Shown: positions 27,534 through 35,538 of the stretch, piece by piece
Layout: each line of letters begins with the position of its first letter
Numbering within the stretch: position 1 is the first letter of the stretch
Source: Capsulimonas corticalis
GTDB lineage: Bacteria; Armatimonadota; Armatimonadia; Armatimonadales; Capsulimonadaceae
Direction: 5' to 3'
Length of the DNA stretch: 64,000 nucleotides
Assembly: GCF_003574315.2 (NCBI RefSeq)
Contig: NZ_AP025739.1
Coordinates: forward strand, 62,001-126,000
Made by a program: the position numbers and the translations under genes
The notes under the pieces: model-generated
Told to the model about the DNA's origin: nothing
The model's input: only the letters and a program-made list of their open reading frames with translations
The model's database searches: none

Positions 27534-28691
27534 TCACACCCCAAACACCCCCCGCAAATAATCCAAATACACCTGATCCTTGCAGATCGTCTTGCCCGGA
27601 CTGTCGCTCAGCTTCGCCACCGGGCGGCCGTTGCAGCGCGTCATTTTGATCACGATCTGGAGTGGCTCAACACCCAGGTCGTTCGTCAAGTTCGTGCCGA
27701 CGCCGAAGGAGGTGAGGATGCGGCCCTGGAAATGGCGCGCGAGGTCGAGGGCTTTGGGGATGGTCAGGCCGTCGCTGAAGACGGCGGCTTTGGTTCGGGG
27801 GTCGACGCCGTACTTGGTGTAGTGGCGGATCAGCTTTTCGCCCCATTCATAAGGGTCGCCGGAGTCGTGGCGCGCGCCGTCGTAGGCTTTGCTGAACAGG
27901 CGGTCGAAATCGTTCAGGAAGGCGTCCATGCCGACGACATCGGAAAGGGCAATGCCAAGGTCGCCGCGATACTCCTGCATCCAGGTTTCCAGCGCGAACT
28001 TCTGAAACTCCGCCAGCGGAGCGAACGCCTGGCAGGCCTGCAAAATCTCGTGCGCCATCGTGCCGAAGGGACGGAGGCCGTGCGTGCGCGCGAAGTGGAC
28101 GTTGCTTGTTCCCATCAGCGTGTCCGGGAGGCGCGATTTCAGCTCCGAAATCACCTCGCCCTGCCAGTCACGGCTGTAGCGGCGGCGCGTGCCGAACTCG
28201 ATGAGATTGAAGCGCGGCAGGCGCGCCTCGGCGATCCATCGACATTTTTCATCCAGGCGGCGGCGGCCTTCAGCGCGCAGCGCCTCCGTCATCGGCTGCG
28301 TATTGCGAAAATAAACTTCGTTGACAATCGACAGCAATGGCACTTCAAAGAGAATCGTCTGGAACCAGTTGCCTTTGACCGTGATCGCAAACTCTCCGTC
28401 AGTCGTGATGCTCACGGCCTGAGGATCGAGTTCAAAACGCTCCAGGGCCTCCACATAGCTGGGATGCAGATAGCGAATGCTTTGAAGATAGGCGATCTCC
28501 TCGTCATTGAGCCGAAGATCGCACAGATGGGCGATTTCGGCCTTGATCTCGTCGGCGTACGGGCGAAGATCGATTCCCTGACTGCGCAGTCGAAACTCAT
28601 ACTCCGCTGTCGCCTGTGGAAACCGATGGAACACGACTTGCTGCATCGTGAACTTATAAAGGTCCGTATCCAGTAACGATTCGATGATCAT
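27534..28691 (-). CDS. pncB: Nicotinate phosphoribosyltransferase
   Basis: Encodes 385 residues from the ATG at 28691, 3 bp after the preceding stop. It starts IESLLDTDLYKFTMQQVVFHRFP, the family signature; FGTRRRYS, GTSNVHFA and the phosphoribosyl-binding end (FGVGTNLTND) are present. It joins nicotinate and PRPP to make nicotinate mononucleotide in the Preiss-Handler route of NAD salvage. It is the last gene of the NAD operon; a nicotinamidase-like gene starts the operon. Confidence 0.93.
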   Translation of the reverse strand: MIIESLLDTDLYKFTMQQVVFHRFPQATAEYEFRLRSQGIDLRPYADEIKAEIAHLCDLRLNDEEIAYLQSIRYLHPSYVEALERFELDPQAVSITTDGEFAITVKGNWFQTILFEVPLLSIVNEVYFRNTQPMTEALRAEGRRRLDEKCRWIAEARLPRFNLIEFGTRRRYSRDWQGEVISELKSRLPDTLMGTSNVHFARTHGLRPFGTMAHEILQACQAFAPLAEFQKFALETWMQEYRGDLGIALSDVVGMDAFLNDFDRLFSKAYDGARHDSGDPYEWGEKLIRHYTKYGVDPRTKAAVFSDGLTIPKALDLARHFQGRILTSFGVGTNLTNDLGVEPLQIVIKMTRCNGRPVAKLSDSPGKTICKDQVYLDYLRGVFGV

Positions 28692-28693
28692 AG

Positions 28694-29143
28694 TTATTTT
28701 TCCAAAAAATCCGACGCCTGCGCGGCCAGTTCTTGCAAACTCAGAACGACGGTCAGCTCCGGGCGCAGGAGGCGCATCTGCTCCTCGATGTCCTTCCGGC
28801 GAGAGTAATCCGGGTGGACGCCGACAAAGATCGGCTTGCCGGCCATCGACCACGCGCCCAGCTCAAACAGTGAGATGGGGCAAACGGTCTCGCAGGGAAA
28901 CCAGAAGAGTATGGCCTCGGCGAGCCTCAGATGATCGAACTCCCATGAAATCTGCTGCTCGGCCGACCAATCGGGATCCTCGAAGTAGCGCGGATGGCGC
29001 GGATTGAGCAGTGTCCACGGCGTCCCGGACAGAAATCCGATCATCGCCGACTGCCAGTCCGGGCATCCCGTGACACCGCCCGCCAGGAACAGCGCCGCGC
29101 CATCCCCGGAAAACCGGTCCGGCGTATTGGTCAGGCGCGCCAT
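28694..29143 (-). CDS. Nucleoside 2-deoxyribosyltransferase-like protein
   Basis: Encodes 149 residues. LFLAGGVTGCPDWQ at the N-terminus, an acidic central segment (EFDHLRLAEAILFWFP) and SLFELGAW with the likely nucleophile Glu match the Nuc_deoxyrib_tr_2 type. In known members the Glu attacks a (deoxy)ribosyl bond. Placed between the kinase-like gene and pncB with no spacing, it may process nicotinamide or ADP-ribose nucleosides; that substrate is inference from context. Confidence 0.75.
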   Translation of the reverse strand: MARLTNTPDRFSGDGAALFLAGGVTGCPDWQSAMIGFLSGTPWTLLNPRHPRYFEDPDWSAEQQISWEFDHLRLAEAILFWFPCETVCPISLFELGAWSMAGKPIFVGVHPDYSRRKDIEEQMRLLRPELTVVLSLQELAAQASDFLEK

Positions 29144-30811
29144 TCAATTCTCCTCCCGCATGCCGAACTTGAACAGCTTCGCGCCGCGCGCGAACAGCGC
29201 CTGCGTCCCGTTTTTTAGGAGGATGCAGTCGCCGTCCAATCCCGTCTCCTCGCAGCGCTGGTATTGAGTCGAATCGAGATCTCGCGCGAAGATCTCCAGA
29301 GCGCCATGGTCGTCGAGAAGCAGGCACACGCCGCTGTCCAGCACGACGAAGTTGATCTCCGCGCTTGCGACATCTTCCCGGCGGCGCAGGTCGTAGCGCC
29401 GGAAATCCGTGGCGAAGCGGATGATGTACTGGTCGTAACGTCCGTCTCGGGCGGCGATCACGATCAGCACGCGGTCTTTGTACGACGCGCTGACGATCCG
29501 CGCGCCGTCCAGCTCCGCCAAACGCACCTGCCGGCTCTCGCCGCGTCTGGGCAGCACGGACACATAACATGCGCCGAGGACATCCTGCACGGCGACGCCT
29601 TCGAAGAGCTGGGTCGCCTGCGGCATGACGTTCGCGACCGGCCGCGCGCTCGCCAGCGTCACGAGCGGCAGCGCCACCAGATCGACTTCGAGCAGCGATC
29701 CCCCTTGCTGAAAATACAGACGCCCGCCGCTGGACATCACGCTGTCGCCGGCAAGGCGCGTCTCCAGCGGCCGGTCTCTTTGTAAGTCGTAAAAACGAAT
29801 ATACCCGTTCTCCGGCCACGCCGCCACCGCCTGTGTCCCGCCCGGCGCGATTCCGATCTTCACATCAGGTCCCAGCACCGTGGCGCCGCCGATCACGACG
29901 CCTTGCGCCGTGATCACCAGGCCGTTGACGAAGTCCACGATATCGGCGCCGTAGTCGCGCATCTCTTCGATCTCAAAGCTCGCGCTGGTCGGCGCCGCCG
30001 CCATGCGCGGCGCGAAAGAAATGGCGCCGTAGGCGCCTTGCGGCGGCGCAATGCGCTGCCCGCCATCGAGCACGGACTGATACCAATCGCGATAGGCGCT
30101 CGGGATAACATCGAACGACAAACACGCGCCGGGCACGCTCACGTCCGGGTTCAAAACGGAGACGTTGCGCAGCATGCGCTCCTCCAACGTCTTCCATTGC
30201 GGATGCTTGCCCCGGTAGGGATGGATGCCGGCAAAGATCTGAAACGAGACCACCGCGAAGGCAAACCAGTCCGTCGCTTCGCTAAAGCCGCGCGCATGGC
30301 GATCTCGAACGCTGTCCATCAGGGCAGTCGCCGGAAACCCGGGCGCCTGATAGCTATCGACATCGATAAAGTACAGATTGTCCAGCGTCTCATCCACCAC
30401 GAAGTTCATCTCGTTCAGATCGACGATCAGCAGGCCCTGCTCGTGGACGTGCTGGACACCCGCCTGTAAACGCCGCACCAGCTCCAGCGCCGCATCCGGC
30501 GTCAGGCCCTTGCGATCCCGAAAGGCGCGCGGAAAAATCTGACACAACGGATACCCTTTCGGCGCCGCGCGCATCGCATAGCCAATGGGGTCGCGGTTCT
30601 TATCCGTCAGCATCGCCTCCGGCCGCAGGATCTCCGGCAGGTTCAGCACCGACAGCGCCCGCACCTTACCCTCGGGAACAACGCTGCCCGCCGAATTGTA
30701 GACTTTGTACGCAGTCGCGCCCTTGACATACACCGCGCCTTCCCCACCCTGCGCCTTGAAATCCGCCTGCGTGAGCGTGATCTTCTGCTTGCCTTCTAAA
30801 TAGACATCCAT
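29144..30811 (-). CDS. Protein-kinase-fold protein with C-terminal beta-rich domain
   Basis: Encodes 555 residues from the ATG at 30811, 10 bp after the ADP-ribosylglycohydrolase stop. Kinase core: a Gly-loop-like GGEGAVY with YKVY Lys (residues about 17-35), catalytic loop IVDLNEMN (Asp and Asn kept, no HRD His) and metal-binding FIDVDSY in place of DFG. The C-terminal 270 residues are beta-strand-rich repeats resembling a propeller (for example PENGYIRFYDLQ, SGGRLYFQQ). Together with the vWA and ADP-ribosylglycohydrolase genes it suggests a phosphorylation-based sensing module. Confidence 0.7.
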   Translation of the reverse strand: MDVYLEGKQKITLTQADFKAQGGEGAVYVKGATAYKVYNSAGSVVPEGKVRALSVLNLPEILRPEAMLTDKNRDPIGYAMRAAPKGYPLCQIFPRAFRDRKGLTPDAALELVRRLQAGVQHVHEQGLLIVDLNEMNFVVDETLDNLYFIDVDSYQAPGFPATALMDSVRDRHARGFSEATDWFAFAVVSFQIFAGIHPYRGKHPQWKTLEERMLRNVSVLNPDVSVPGACLSFDVIPSAYRDWYQSVLDGGQRIAPPQGAYGAISFAPRMAAAPTSASFEIEEMRDYGADIVDFVNGLVITAQGVVIGGATVLGPDVKIGIAPGGTQAVAAWPENGYIRFYDLQRDRPLETRLAGDSVMSSGGRLYFQQGGSLLEVDLVALPLVTLASARPVANVMPQATQLFEGVAVQDVLGACYVSVLPRRGESRQVRLAELDGARIVSASYKDRVLIVIAARDGRYDQYIIRFATDFRRYDLRRREDVASAEINFVVLDSGVCLLLDDHGALEIFARDLDSTQYQRCEETGLDGDCILLKNGTQALFARGAKLFKFGMREEN

Positions 30812-30821
30812 TGTAGCTTCC

Positions 30822-31880
30822 TCAATACGGCGGCGCCAGCCGCCGCAGCCCATGCGCCAAGACGACGAGGGCAAAACAAAAATTGCGCGCGAAGCGCAGG
30901 GCGAATAGCGAATCGACGGGGCGCTCCGGCTGACCGGTCTCGCAGACCTGAGACAATTGCGTCGCGAGCCGCCGCATCCAGGCAATGCTGCATGGTTTTT
31001 CGCAGATCCCATCCAGCCACTCGGAGGGGATCGACGCGCCGCCGGCGCCGACCATTGCGCCGACGATCGCCGCCGTGGTGTCCGTGTCGCCGCCGCAGGC
31101 GATGACGGATCGAACCGCTTTTTCAAAGTCTGCCGGGCTGCTGAGCCAGCAGTGAATGGCGACCGGGACCGTTTGCAGGATATAGCCGCGCACATATCCC
31201 GCCGCGCCAATGCCGGCGGCGAAGTCCGTCACGCTCTCGGATCGTTGCACGCTGGCAATCGCCGCATCCAAGACTCGAAGCGTTTCCGGCTCGTCGACCA
31301 ACTCGTGCAGATGCTCTCGGAATTCAGAGACAATCTCATCTGCCGGCAATCGCCGCGACGAGAGATAAGCGGCGACCGCCACCGCCATCGCACCGGCCTC
31401 GGCTTTGGGGTCGGTGTGCGTGATGCGCGTGGAGGCTTGAACCAGCCGACGCATCTGCTCGGGGTGGTCGCCATAGCAGACGCCGAGCAATGCGCTGCGC
31501 ATCGCGGGACCGTTGCCGGCGGAGCGGACGCCGCTGCGTTCCGGCGGGACTCCGGCAAGCAGCTTGAGGCAGGCGCGCAGTGTGGCGAGACCGATCCCCG
31601 CCGGCAGTCCCAAAAACCAGATCCGCAGGCGACGGGCGAAACGGCGCTGGAAGAGTGCGGCGTCGCCCGCCGACTCGATGAGGCTTTGCGCCAGCAGGCA
31701 TGCGTGCTCGGTGTCATCGGAGACCATGCCGCGCCCGCCGGGCAGCAGGCGCGGACGGTCCAGATTTGGGAACAGTTTGCGCTGCCTTGGATAAGACAGC
31801 CCTTCGGCGGCCAATCCCAGCGCGTCGCCCGCCGCCGTTCCCAATAAGCACCCCGTAATCGCTTCTTCTCTCGACCCCAT
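30822..31880 (-). CDS. ADP-ribosylglycohydrolase family protein
   Basis: Encodes 352 residues; GGAGAG lies 4 bases before the ATG at 31880. GCLLGTAAGDALG (start), MVSDDTEHACLLA and CGGDTDTTAAIVGAMVGA carry the Asp/Thr ligands of the two-magnesium centre. Such enzymes remove ADP-ribose from proteins or small molecules. In this operon freed ADP-ribose could feed back to the Nudix-type regulator NrtR, whose family can sense ADP-ribose. Confidence 0.88.
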   Translation of the reverse strand: MGSREEAITGCLLGTAAGDALGLAAEGLSYPRQRKLFPNLDRPRLLPGGRGMVSDDTEHACLLAQSLIESAGDAALFQRRFARRLRIWFLGLPAGIGLATLRACLKLLAGVPPERSGVRSAGNGPAMRSALLGVCYGDHPEQMRRLVQASTRITHTDPKAEAGAMAVAVAAYLSSRRLPADEIVSEFREHLHELVDEPETLRVLDAAIASVQRSESVTDFAAGIGAAGYVRGYILQTVPVAIHCWLSSPADFEKAVRSVIACGGDTDTTAAIVGAMVGAGGASIPSEWLDGICEKPCSIAWMRRLATQLSQVCETGQPERPVDSLFALRFARNFCFALVVLAHGLRRLAPPY

Positions 31881-31906
31881 CGAACTCTCCTCGCGCCCAG
31901 GCCGCC

Positions 31907-32650
31907 TCAGAACTTGAGCGGCGCCGGCGCGACGCCCGAGCCGAGCGCCTGGGACTGCATGCTGATGCTGCGCGAGACGAACTCCGCGAGCGTCGCCAAT
32001 GTCTGCGCGTTGGCGCTCGCCATCTCGATATACTGACTGAAGCCGCCGTCTTGATAGGCCCGCTGCAGATCCTGACTGACTTGCTTGTCGCGGACGTTGA
32101 CGCCGATCAGCACCGAGAGCGCCATTTCGACATATTCGTCGGAGACCGCCCGCGCCATCGCATCGCGCACGCCCTGCGCGGTATGCTTGGAGGTGTTGTC
32201 GCCGCCGTCGGTGATCACGAACAAGATCGCGTTGGCCGAAAACCCGCCCACACCCAGCTGCTTGCCGTAGTCGACCGTGGCGCTGATGGCGTTCTCCGCC
32301 GCGTCGTAAAGCGAGGTGCTGCCGCCGACATGCAAAACCTTCTCGTAGTCCGCCGGACGGCAGCACTCCAGCATTTTGAAGCCGTGCAGTTCGCGGACGT
32401 CGCCGCTGAACTCCACAAGCCGCAGCAAAAGATTATCGGCGCGCGGGCTGTACTGGCAGGCCTGCACGATGCCTTTCAGTGTCTTCTCCAGCTCGACTTG
32501 AAATCCGGCGACGCTGCTGCTGGCGTCCACGACGATGGAGACCAGCGTATACTCCGTCGCGCCAAGGTTGTCGATCCGGGTGGCCGAGTAGCCGTAATGG
32601 CTCGTCGGCAGCGTCTTCATCTCGAAAGTCAGGTCATTGATCACAGGCAT
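31907..32650 (-). CDS. von Willebrand factor A domain protein
   Basis: Encodes 247 residues; AAAGGAG precedes the ATG at 32650. The metal-ion-dependent adhesion site is complete: DASSSV (D-x-S-x-S), Thr in GGSTSLYD and Asp in ITDGGDN. No signal peptide or membrane helix, so cytoplasmic. vWA proteins next to kinases usually act as adaptors or are the kinase target. Confidence 0.85.
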   Translation of the reverse strand: MPVINDLTFEMKTLPTSHYGYSATRIDNLGATEYTLVSIVVDASSSVAGFQVELEKTLKGIVQACQYSPRADNLLLRLVEFSGDVRELHGFKMLECCRPADYEKVLHVGGSTSLYDAAENAISATVDYGKQLGVGGFSANAILFVITDGGDNTSKHTAQGVRDAMARAVSDEYVEMALSVLIGVNVRDKQVSQDLQRAYQDGGFSQYIEMASANAQTLATLAEFVSRSISMQSQALGSGVAPAPLKF

Positions 32651-32677: not shown

Positions 32678-33475
32678 CTAGCGCAGGAAATCCTGCGTGG
32701 TCGCGAGCTGCATCCCTCGCGCGGTCATTTCTTTGATAAAATCGTCCTGATACGCTTCGAACCCGGTCACCGGGCTGGTCGCGTCGGTCAAAAGCACCAG
32801 CTTCTTCACCGCGTCATCGCTGCCGAAGCCGTTGGCGATATCGCGAACCGTGTTCGCCAAACAGTGGCTCCCGGCCTCGCCGGCGACAGCGATGACGTCC
32901 GCCTGCAAGAGCGTCTGGATCAGCGCCGTATTCATCTGCGTGCTCGGGTCCATCGGATCGGGAACTTCGGCTTGAATGGCGCTATAGTGCTCGGTGAAGA
33001 TATTGCTGCCCTTGGTGACATAATCCACCATCGCAAACCGCTTCTCCCACCCAACGAGCGCATCCTGAAGCTCGGGCATCACCGCGTGTCCCTCGGTCCC
33101 GATCAGACAGTGGTAAGGCCAGATGCACAGCGCATATCGTCCATCCGCCGCCAGCGCCTTCACGTAATCCAGTCCACGCCGGTACATCCCCGGCTGCGTG
33201 GTCGTCCACCGCCCATTCTCCACGTCATCGACACTGATCAGCGTGAATGGGTCCGGATGCGCCCCGGTGCTGTCCTTCCAAAAGATCGGGTGCGCGATAT
33301 CGATATAGTGGTGCGAATCGAGCGTGACGTGAATGTCATCCAGCTTCGTCCCCACCCGGTCGATCATTTGCGCGAGCCGGTGAATATCCTGCTCCGCGCC
33401 TTTGACATAAAGTTTGCCGCGCTGGGGATCGCAGAAGTCGATCTGCGGATCGATGATCAATAGTTCTACCTGCAT
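32678..33475 (-). CDS. Isochorismatase-family hydrolase, nicotinamidase-like
   Basis: Encodes 265 residues; AAAGGAGC precedes the ATG at 33475. LIIDPQIDFCDP (catalytic Asp), DSHHYIDIAHP (metal site Asp/His/His) and the cysteine nucleophile region AGEAGSHCLANTV fit a nicotinamidase rather than other members. It would make nicotinate, the substrate of the operon's last gene. It is the first gene after the operator-flanked promoter. Confidence 0.82.
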   Translation of the reverse strand: MQVELLIIDPQIDFCDPQRGKLYVKGAEQDIHRLAQMIDRVGTKLDDIHVTLDSHHYIDIAHPIFWKDSTGAHPDPFTLISVDDVENGRWTTTQPGMYRRGLDYVKALAADGRYALCIWPYHCLIGTEGHAVMPELQDALVGWEKRFAMVDYVTKGSNIFTEHYSAIQAEVPDPMDPSTQMNTALIQTLLQADVIAVAGEAGSHCLANTVRDIANGFGSDDAVKKLVLLTDATSPVTGFEAYQDDFIKEMTARGMQLATTQDFLR

Positions 33476-33493: not shown

Positions 33494-33550
33494 AGTGTTC
33501 AATTTACACTTACAAGAGCAGTATACCACAGATAGTGTAAAACAAACACT
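33494..33550 (-). promoter_or_regulatory. NAD-operon promoter flanked by two AGTGT-N7-ACACT operators
   Basis: Two inverted repeats of identical build, AGTGT-N7-ACACT, are at 33494-33510 and 33534-33550, with centres 40 bp apart. A -10 TATACT (minus strand, 33520-33525) lies between; the poor -35 (TGTTTG, 33543-33548) lies inside the upstream repeat. A repressor bound to both would block the promoter. The NrtR-type gene upstream is the obvious candidate. Confidence 0.75.
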
Positions 33551-33576
33551 TATTTTTGATGTGCGAGAAAAAGATT

Positions 33577-33743
33577 GGCCCTCACCCCCCGGCCCCTCTC
33601 CCAATTTTGGGAGAGGGGGAGTCAGAGGGAGTGAGAGTTTAAAGTCATAAGATCTTTTGGATCAAAGATCCAAATCTTAATCTCTTACTCCTAACCCTCT
33701 CCTAGAATTGGGAGAGGGTGGCCCGAAGGGCCGGGTGAGGGCC
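33577..33743. repeat. Inverted-repeat element, 167 bp
   Basis: The left arm (CCCTCACC..GGCCCCTCTCCCAA) and right arm (TTGGGAGAGGG..GGCCGGGTGAGGG) are imperfect inverted repeats, with smaller nested hairpins on each side and an inner GGATC-AAA-GATCC hairpin. Repeats of this type with GGGAGAGGG and GGGTGAGGG are widespread, non-coding and MITE-like. It lies between nrtR's stop and the NAD operon promoter and could insulate them. Confidence 0.7.
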
Positions 33744-33744
33744 C

Positions 33745-34413
33745 CTATCCTGCAAACTCATACAGCGCCGCCGGGCGGTGTGCGCCGCGTACTTCTTCGG
33801 TGGTCTGGGACAGAATGCCGAGGGACAGAATCCATTTACGGAAGTTGCGTTTGTCGAGTTCACGGCCCATCAGGGTTTCGTAGACTTCTTGAAGCTGGGT
33901 GAGGGTGAATTTGGCGGGGAGGAGGCCGCGCGCGACGTAGCCGGCTTCGACTTTGGCGCGCAGCGATTTGTGCGCGTCTTCGAGAATCTTAATGTGATCG
34001 AAGGCGAGCGGGAGCGGGAGGTCGTCGATGGGGAACCAGTTGGCGTCGGCGGCGTCGGTGTCGGCGCGCAGGATCACGCGGTCGCTGGGGATGAGCGCGG
34101 TGAAGGCGAGGGTGATGACGCGCGTGCGCGGGTCGCGGCCGGGATCGCCGTAGGCGCGCAGCTGTTCCAGAGCGGCGTCGGTGACGCCGGTTTCTTCGCG
34201 CAGTTCCCGCTCGGCGGCCGCCTCCAGGGTTTCCTCCATGCGGACGAAGCCGCCGGGGATCGCCCACAGGCCCTCGAACGGCCAGGCTTTGCGCTGAATC
34301 AGCAGGACCTGAAGCGTGCGATGACGGAGGGTGAAGATGACGATGTCGGCGGTGACGGAAGGCCGTTCAAACTGCGTGACATCGTAGGCGAGCGCGGGAT
34401 CGAGGTCGGGCAT
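33745..34413 (-). CDS. nrtR: NrtR-type Nudix-domain transcriptional repressor
   Basis: Encodes 222 residues. The Nudix box GGFVRMEETLEAAAERELREE is intact (ADP-ribose pyrophosphatase-like fold), followed by a C-terminal winged-helix (LPAKFTLTQLQEVYE, DKRNFRKWILSLGIL). NrtR proteins repress NAD synthesis genes and release DNA when ADP-ribose or related nucleotides rise. The divergent-position promoter has TTGACA (34455-34460) and TAAGAT (34431-34436), and a GTGT-N7-ACAC site (34415-34429) covers its start, so autoregulation is likely. Confidence 0.88.
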   Translation of the reverse strand: MPDLDPALAYDVTQFERPSVTADIVIFTLRHRTLQVLLIQRKAWPFEGLWAIPGGFVRMEETLEAAAERELREETGVTDAALEQLRAYGDPGRDPRTRVITLAFTALIPSDRVILRADTDAADANWFPIDDLPLPLAFDHIKILEDAHKSLRAKVEAGYVARGLLPAKFTLTQLQEVYETLMGRELDKRNFRKWILSLGILSQTTEEVRGAHRPAALYEFAG

Positions 34414-34414
34414 G

Positions 34415-34460
34415 GTGTTCTCCAGACACGATCTTATCTGAAGAGTGAGGGAATTGTCAA
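34415..34460 (-). promoter_or_regulatory. nrtR promoter with overlapping operator
   Basis: On the minus strand: -35 TTGACA (34455-34460), 18-bp spacer, -10 TAAGAT (34431-34436). GTGT-N7-ACAC at 34415-34429 matches the build of the two NAD-operon operators and contains the ribosome site GGAGA. Confidence 0.65.
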
Positions 34461-34530: not shown

Positions 34531-35538
34531 TCAAGGCGTGGCAACGCGCGGCCAGCCGTCGCGGTCCCAGGTTAATTTGTCCACGTTTGCCGTGGTGGCG
34601 CCGCTTTTGTCTTTGGCCCATTCATAATGCGTGGTCAGCCAGTCGCCGTCTTTGTCGAACAGCACGCCGACATGGCCTGGGCCAACTTCGCTTCCATCTG
34701 ATTTCTTGTTGTCCAGGAAGATCGTCCCGCCGCCGTCTTTCAGATCCTTGCCGTCTTTGTCGAGGAAGGGGCCGGTGACGTTCTTGGAGCGTCCCATGCG
34801 AATGTTATACGTGCTTTTTTCGCCCTGGCAGCAGGATCCCCAATTCACGAACAGATAGTACCAGCCGTCGTGGGGAATGATGGCGGACGCTTCGATGTCC
34901 CCGTAGGGCGGGCTGGGATGCGTGGCGATCTTGACGGGAACGGCCCCGGCCGCCGTCTTGCCGGATTCGGGATCGATCTTTACGACATAGATGCCGCTGA
35001 AGTACGAACCGAAGCTCAGCCAGGGCTGGCCGTGAAAATCGACGAAGATGCAGGGATCGATCGTATTGAAACCCTGCGAGGTGGGAGACTGGACGACGAC
35101 GCCCCGATCAACCCAGGCGCGGGGATCGAGCGTGCTATTCGTCGCCACTCCGATCCCCGATCTTTGGCTGCCGAACGACGAGTAAGAGTAGTAGAGATGA
35201 TACTGCCCGTGGAAGTAATGGATGTCCGGCGCCCAGGCGTTGTTATGCCGATTCTCCGGGACCGCCTCCGATACCCAGGCGGGACGCACCGCGAACACGG
35301 GGCCACGGTCCGTCCAATGCAGACGGTCCGTGGAGGAAAACTGCTGGACGCCGCGACCGGTGCCGTAGATCCAGTACGTTCCGTCCTGCTTCACCATCGT
35401 GGAAGGGTCGCGGACAAGGCAGTCGGTCTCGGCGGCGCGCAGCACGCCCGGCGCCAGCAGGGCGCAGATCGCAAAGATCGCCAGAGATCGGTTCTTGACG
35501 GAGCGCGCGTCGACGCTGCGCGAGGACATACGGATCAC
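34531..35538 (-). CDS. GH43 arabinan endo-1,5-alpha-L-arabinosidase-like, exported
   Basis: Encodes 335 residues. A signal peptide (to about residue 35, ending LRAA) precedes a five-bladed propeller domain. RDPSTMVKQDGTYWIYGTG carries the general-base Asp, NTIDPCIFVD the pKa-modulating Asp and GDIEASAI the general-acid Glu; WAPDIHYFHGQYHLYYS is typical of arabinanases. It would cut alpha-1,5-arabinan in plant cell-wall material outside the cytoplasm. Confidence 0.88.
   Translation of the reverse strand: MIRMSSRSVDARSVKNRSLAIFAICALLAPGVLRAAETDCLVRDPSTMVKQDGTYWIYGTGRGVQQFSSTDRLHWTDRGPVFAVRPAWVSEAVPENRHNNAWAPDIHYFHGQYHLYYSYSSFGSQRSGIGVATNSTLDPRAWVDRGVVVQSPTSQGFNTIDPCIFVDFHGQPWLSFGSYFSGIYVVKIDPESGKTAAGAVPVKIATHPSPPYGDIEASAIIPHDGWYYLFVNWGSCCQGEKSTYNIRMGRSKNVTGPFLDKDGKDLKDGGGTIFLDNKKSDGSEVGPGHVGVLFDKDGDWLTTHYEWAKDKSGATTANVDKLTWDRDGWPRVATP

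Follow-up and report, generated by a model that had tools for sequence, protein, structure and literature searches.

The window, by which we mean the whole 64-kb stretch of DNA analysed, contains the regulator gene nrtR and, beside it, an operon in the order pncA-VWA-ARG-kinase-NDT2-pncB, all on the minus strand, together with three short palindromes at the promoters of the operon and of nrtR.

27534-28697, minus strand: pncB, nicotinate phosphoribosyltransferase (profile matches)
28694-29143, minus strand: NDT2, nucleoside 2-deoxyribosyltransferase-like (Nuc_deoxyri_tr2 profile match)
29144-30805, minus strand: kinase-like gene (weak Pkinase match, below the cut-off)
30822-31904, minus strand: ADP-ribosylglycohydrolase (ARG/DraG-like) gene (profile match, 1.9e-64)
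31907-32650, minus strand: VWA-domain gene (profile match)
32678-33475, minus strand: pncA-like gene of the isochorismatase/nicotinamidase family, first of the operon (borderline, 26.0 bits in Pfam against a cut-off of 27)
33494-33510, strandless: O1, predicted proximal operator of the pncA operon, AGTGTTCAATTTACACT (AGTGT-N7-ACACT), at about +2 to +19 of the predicted transcript
33525-33520, minus strand: TATACT, the pncA-operon -10 hexamer, which with TGG in front of it makes an extended -10 (TGG-TATACT, 33528-33520), read from the sequence
33534-33550, strandless: O2, predicted distal operator of the pncA operon, AGTGTAAAACAAACACT (AGTGT-N7-ACACT), over the -35 position of the pncA promoter
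33745-34413, minus strand: nrtR, encoding a Nudix domain and an NrtR winged-helix domain, with an intact Nudix box and an LDKRNFRK recognition helix
34414-34430 (core 34415-34429): O3, predicted nrtR operator, GGTGTTCTCCAGACACG, which reads CGTGTCTGGAGAACACC on the minus strand, directly after the nrtR -10
34431-34460, minus strand: nrtR promoter TTGACA-N18-TAAGAT, read from the sequence
34531-35538, same strand as nrtR: arabinan endo-1,5-alpha-L-arabinosidase-like gene (GH43), directly upstream of nrtR

With pncA-like and pncB genes in the adjoining operon, nrtR is linked to NAD metabolism, as expected of the NrtR family. The pncA assignment is borderline, being based on weak profile matches and on linkage in relatives, where the gene adjoins pncB or NDT2-pncB (G007, G008, G014 and G017). 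The stretch from the nrtR stop to the pncA promoter holds the sequence CCCTCTCCCAATT(T/C)T(G/A)GGAGAGGG twice (33594-33617 and 33695-33718), each time able to form a hairpin, with no further copies at up to three mismatches in the 64-kb window; these hairpins could terminate the nrtR transcript or belong to a mobile repeat.

The initial annotation had described two 17-bp AGTGT-N7-ACACT repeats, 40 bp apart from centre to centre, around the -10 of the NAD operon, and O1 and O2 are exactly these: both are perfect, have unlike spacers and flank the extended -10. It had also placed a third, GTGT-N7-ACAC, site over the start of nrtR. That site is present as O3, but the start codon lies outside it; O3 abuts the nrtR -10, and its last base is the base before the nrtR ATG. 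O3 has the core only and is less symmetrical than either O1 or O2.

Rarity and conservation of the palindromes

The core GTGT-N7-ACAC occurs three times in the window against 0.33 expected, and none of 100 shuffles reached three. Across the 7.65-Mb genome there are 19 cores, compared with 40 for a reversed control, and three of the 19 fall within 935 bp at the pncA/nrtR locus. At the genome density of cores, the chance of finding two no more than 150 bp apart is ~7e-8, and that of finding one within 60 bp upstream of nrtR is ~1.5e-4; by this latter value, the core-only O3 is significant through its place alone. A genome scan confirms that the exact AGTGT-N7-ACACT motif is rare, with three copies (control pattern, one), two of which are O1 and O2 at the pncA operon. 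The third exact copy (G000:6965883), flanked by an unrelated gene on either side, was taken as chance, and other exact sites inspected in genomes of the order are also mostly at unrelated genes. One-mismatch forms show no genome-wide excess (57 versus 92 for the control pattern), so the evidence for the motif is one of position and conservation rather than frequency.

Our set from the order comprises 19 genomes, nine with an nrtR orthologue and nine with a pncA orthologue. The motif is kept at orthologous promoters, a check that the initial annotation had suggested: eight of the nine pncA promoters, seven of them outside the window genome, have it with at most two mismatches (G000, G002, G003, G007, G008, G009, G015 and G017). 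The ninth genome, G014, has pncA-pncB and lacks nrtR, and no operator site was found across 17 kb around its pncA-pncB genes, so that site and regulator are absent together. The best mismatch summed over 18 upstream regions is 29 for a spacer of 7, as against 49-68 for spacers of 4-6 and 8-10. In the closest relative, which belongs to the same genus (G002), both pncA sites recur at the identical 40-bp spacing, O1 with one change, and TATACT is kept.

At nrtR, seven of the nine genes share one layout: 17-18 nt separate a TTGACA-like -35 from the -10, and the operator (degenerate in G015 and G016) comes immediately after. It begins 5-6 bases after the first -10 base in seven genomes and has the same position as in the window genome in G003, G009, G017 and G018. 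In G009 and G015-G018 (L008-L012), the nrtR ATG lies inside the operator spacer, ~7 nt after the -10, an arrangement that points to a leaderless message and suggests that nrtR transcripts of these genomes have no leader. G007 and G008, from one genus, show no operator at nrtR, though the pncA site is kept. We rejected nadA as an NrtR target in this order, there being no exact site near nadA in the same genomes and a single one-mismatch match (G009). A palindromic operator at both nrtR and NAD promoters, kept in relatives, is as expected of the NrtR family.

Similar motifs stand at nrtR promoters elsewhere in the phylum (AGTGTATAATAAACACT in G021, AGTGTAGTATTTACACT in G188 and CGTGTAAAATAGACACT in G190), with extra copies downstream of nrtR in G020 and G021 and with pnuC-like and nadR-like ORFs, recognised by eye from translations, beside nrtR in G188. 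For a broader view, we used 80 loci that encode related regulators and come from named genomes, a set picked partly by helix sequence, in which one locus (L032) is identical to G020 over 3,624 bases. GTGT-N7-ACAC has 79 sites in these 80 loci versus 2-18 for spacers of 3-6 and 8-12; between -260 and +20 of nrtR, a spacer of 7 gives 49 sites in 36 loci versus 0-8 for other spacers. Extended outwards, the consensus reads TTAGTGT-(AT-rich 7)-ACACTAA. Sites often come in pairs, mostly at 22-26 or 30-32 bp, a distance shorter than the 40 bp in the window. The titles of the loci, which may be wrong for metagenome bins, include Chloroflexi, Planctomycetes, Verrucomicrobia, Gammaproteobacteria, Cyanobacteria, Myxococcales, Bacteroidetes groups and others. 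Among the genes that follow the sites are pncB in five loci and nadA in two, as well as genes for NAD synthase, for a quinolinate phosphoribosyltransferase-like (QRPTase-like) protein and for a protein with a phosphoribosyltransferase/ribose-phosphate pyrophosphokinase domain.

Several further occurrences were noted. One operator precedes an SPFH/Band_7 gene (L034:5738), and two lie just after an ORF that is NADAR-like by eye (L022, from G021, near 867-947); both genes may be further NrtR targets. Three loci titled Woesearchaeota or archaeon (L028, L088 and L068) encode NrtR and have the operator upstream of nadA, of a gene for a FAD-dependent oxidoreductase and of a QRPTase-like gene, reflecting either transfer or mis-binning.

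The regulator and the competing readings

The window NrtR combines a Nudix domain (PF00293, 1.1e-23) with a winged helix (PF21906, NrtR_WHD, 4.7e-25), the architecture of the family. Its score against the NCBIfam NtrR equivalog, a narrow naming model rather than a family definition, is 163.8 over nearly the full length, below the 400-bit cut-off. The DKRNFRK helix is invariant across 14 aligned regulators, and the LDKRNFRK helix of the window protein is identical to that of BtAraR, which is also its best match among solved structures. BtAraR was crystallised on GCAAAAGTGTTACTTTTACACCCATGC, that is, AGTGT-N7-ACACC; its Lys179, Asn181 and Lys184 touch bases, Arg180 intercalates, and Lys204 and Arg205 of the wing define, with residues of the helix, the GTGT half-site (PMC4666351). 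The window NrtR has His-Arg at this wing position. The initial annotation had regarded the palindromes as protein-binding sites and not a repeat family, and their spacing, their overlap with promoters and the NrtR recognition helix all fit operators, with binding itself predicted. We conclude that the three palindromes very probably serve as operators for the NrtR whose gene lies at 33745-34413.

Effectors in this family comprise ADP-ribose, NAD and arabinose (PMC4666351). In an alignment, the window NrtR keeps the equivalents of the SoNrtR ADP-ribose residues Tyr10, Phe15, Arg41 and Arg98, with Ala and Glu in place of the alpha-phosphate contacts Asn43 and Lys76; Phe36 and Gly89 of the BtAraR arabinose pocket are Ala and Arg. 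ADP-ribose is favoured as the inducer because most SoNrtR contact residues are kept and the BtAraR marks are lost, and we consider this assignment, made from the protein sequence, probable. The Nudix box GX5EX7REUXEEXGU is intact, unlike that of most described NrtRs, so the protein might not only sense ADP-ribose but may also hydrolyse it.

Taken as a whole, the locus is best read as autoregulated NrtR repression relieved by ADP-ribose, to which we assign a probability of roughly 0.88. Points against this reading are the replaced alpha-phosphate contacts and intact Nudix box, the poorer symmetry of O3, the lack of an nrtR site in G007 and G008, the missed NCBIfam NtrR cut-off, the lack of an exact site at nadA and the choice of the wider regulon after its genes had been seen. 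That the palindromes arose by chance, or form a repeat family with no regulator, would accord with the lack of enrichment of one-mismatch forms in the genome; the arms, however, are kept while the spacers differ, and it is only with a spacer of 7 that sites return at the promoters of orthologues in other genera and phyla, which makes such an origin scarcely credible. A regulator of the AraR kind, responding to L-arabinose at an AraR operator, has more to recommend it, as the GH43 arabinosidase gene adjoins nrtR, AraR_C is matched in Pfam (1.1e-11), and BtAraR is both the closest solved structure and a protein that binds AGTGT-N7-ACACC through the same helix. NrtR_WHD is nevertheless far the better match, the arabinose-pocket residues are replaced while the SoNrtR ones listed above are kept, and no arabinosidase homologue was seen beside nrtR in G003, G009, G017, G018 or G021. 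Moreover, the window scan found no GTGT-N7-ACAC before the arabinosidase gene, the sites standing at NAD genes instead. We therefore consider control by arabinose very unlikely.

A third possibility accepts the sites as NrtR operators but sees the system mainly as an island for ADP-ribosylation repair or anti-phage defence rather than for NAD homeostasis. Predicted ARG-centred conflict systems join ARG to a Nudix or WYL regulator, often with a phosphatase and a chaperone, for instance VWA (PMC9503650), and the ARG, VWA and Nudix-HTH regulator genes of the window match the architecture predicted in section 3.8 of that paper; macro-domain genes with the same operator (see below) also suit this role. 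By contrast, what relatives keep as a core is pncA-pncB, with neither ARG nor VWA, no phosphatase partner was seen in the operon, and PADLOC matches are weak and at the level of domains only. We judge a mainly defensive system to be unlikely, with the caveat that the two roles are compatible and not exclusive.

A predicted NAD and ADP-ribose regulon

Among the matches listed for one-mismatch or core sites of the genome (all but the last few of 57), only three outside the window have an all-A/T spacer, and these three lie 28-47 bp before two macro-domain genes and a DUF6939 gene:

G000:3334067: site before a macro-domain gene (PF01661, 4.7e-10)
G000:3042711: site before a second macro-domain gene (recognised by solved structures, 6e-54), overlapping the -10 of a TTGACA promoter
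G000:1520271: site before the DUF6939 gene L151:1504-2040 (G000:C1:1518200-1522400), in its promoter

Searches for DUF6939 returned no solved relative and no paper. The presence of the operator before these genes suggests a regulon that probably links the salvage of nicotinamide with the turnover of ADP-ribose; this extension was chosen after the genes were seen, and we hold a combined NAD and ADP-ribose regulon under NrtR to be somewhat favoured. In G002, a second ADP-ribosylglycohydrolase gene (L156 near 2869, G002:C262) has an exact operator immediately ahead of its ATG. The orthologue in the window genome has a half-site only, and we rejected it as a target there.

We propose that an NrtR dimer would read two GTGT half-sites via its LDKRNFRK helix and thereby repress its own promoter from O3 at the transcription start, as well as pncA-VWA-ARG-kinase-NDT2-pncB, with O2 lying over the -35 and O1 over the start of transcription; the two macro-domain genes and the DUF6939 gene elsewhere would probably be repressed in the same way. 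Consumption of NAD would generate ADP-ribose, whose binding to the Nudix domain could release the NrtR dimer. Salvage and ADP-ribose-handling genes would then switch on together, and NrtR itself would rise through negative autoregulation, such that a single signal, ADP-ribose, could control both the resynthesis of NAD and the handling of ADP-ribose.

More generally, NrtR operators have been described as highly variable (PMC4666351), and our comparison suggests that a large class with a DKRNFRK helix has one common operator. If so, DNA specificity would be readable from protein sequence. A bolder proposal, that AGTGT-N7-ACACT is a widely common code of this class across phyla and that the regulon here joins NAD salvage to ADP-ribose turnover with the macro-domain and DUF6939 genes, is one to which we give slightly less than even odds; were it true, DUF6939 would be a candidate new ADP-ribose-handling family. 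The model offers a concrete, testable NAD/ADP-ribose regulon for a phylum with little experimental genetics, and a motif that can be scanned for in many genomes could find unknown ADP-ribose genes.

Relation to known systems

The system appears to be of a known kind, with its lineage, promoter geometry, breadth of operator code and macro-domain and DUF6939 targets as candidate new parts. As far as the account of Rodionov et al. (2008) given in PMC4666351 extends, the NrtR proteins of Shewanella oneidensis and Synechocystis are alike in having a Nudix domain with a winged helix, an NAD neighbourhood and a palindromic operator, and most ADP-ribose-contacting residues of SoNrtR are common to the window protein. 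Within the same account, the window NrtR differs in its intact Nudix box and in a regulon that seems to take in macro-domain genes; in addition, the aligned helix segment of SoNrtR is IQGKSFRRR, compared with the GTGT-reading LDKRNFRK. MsNrtR of Mycobacterium smegmatis is likewise an autorepressor of NAD genes with operator arms N7 apart, but its operator is GTTTTCGA-N7-TCGAAAAC and its target is the de novo nadABC genes rather than salvage (PMC6800001). BtAraR of Bacteroides thetaiotaomicron (PMC4666351, PDB 5bs6 group) shares the DKRNFRK helix, the AGTGT-N7-ACACC co-crystal DNA and paired operators, and differs in its L-arabinose effector, impaired Nudix box and regulation of arabinose genes. 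Finally, the ARG-centred NAD/ADP-ribose conflict systems (PMC9503650) likewise bring an ADP-ribosylglycohydrolase, a VWA protein and a Nudix-HTH regulator into one neighbourhood, whereas the window locus is joined to pncA and pncB and is without the usual phosphatase.
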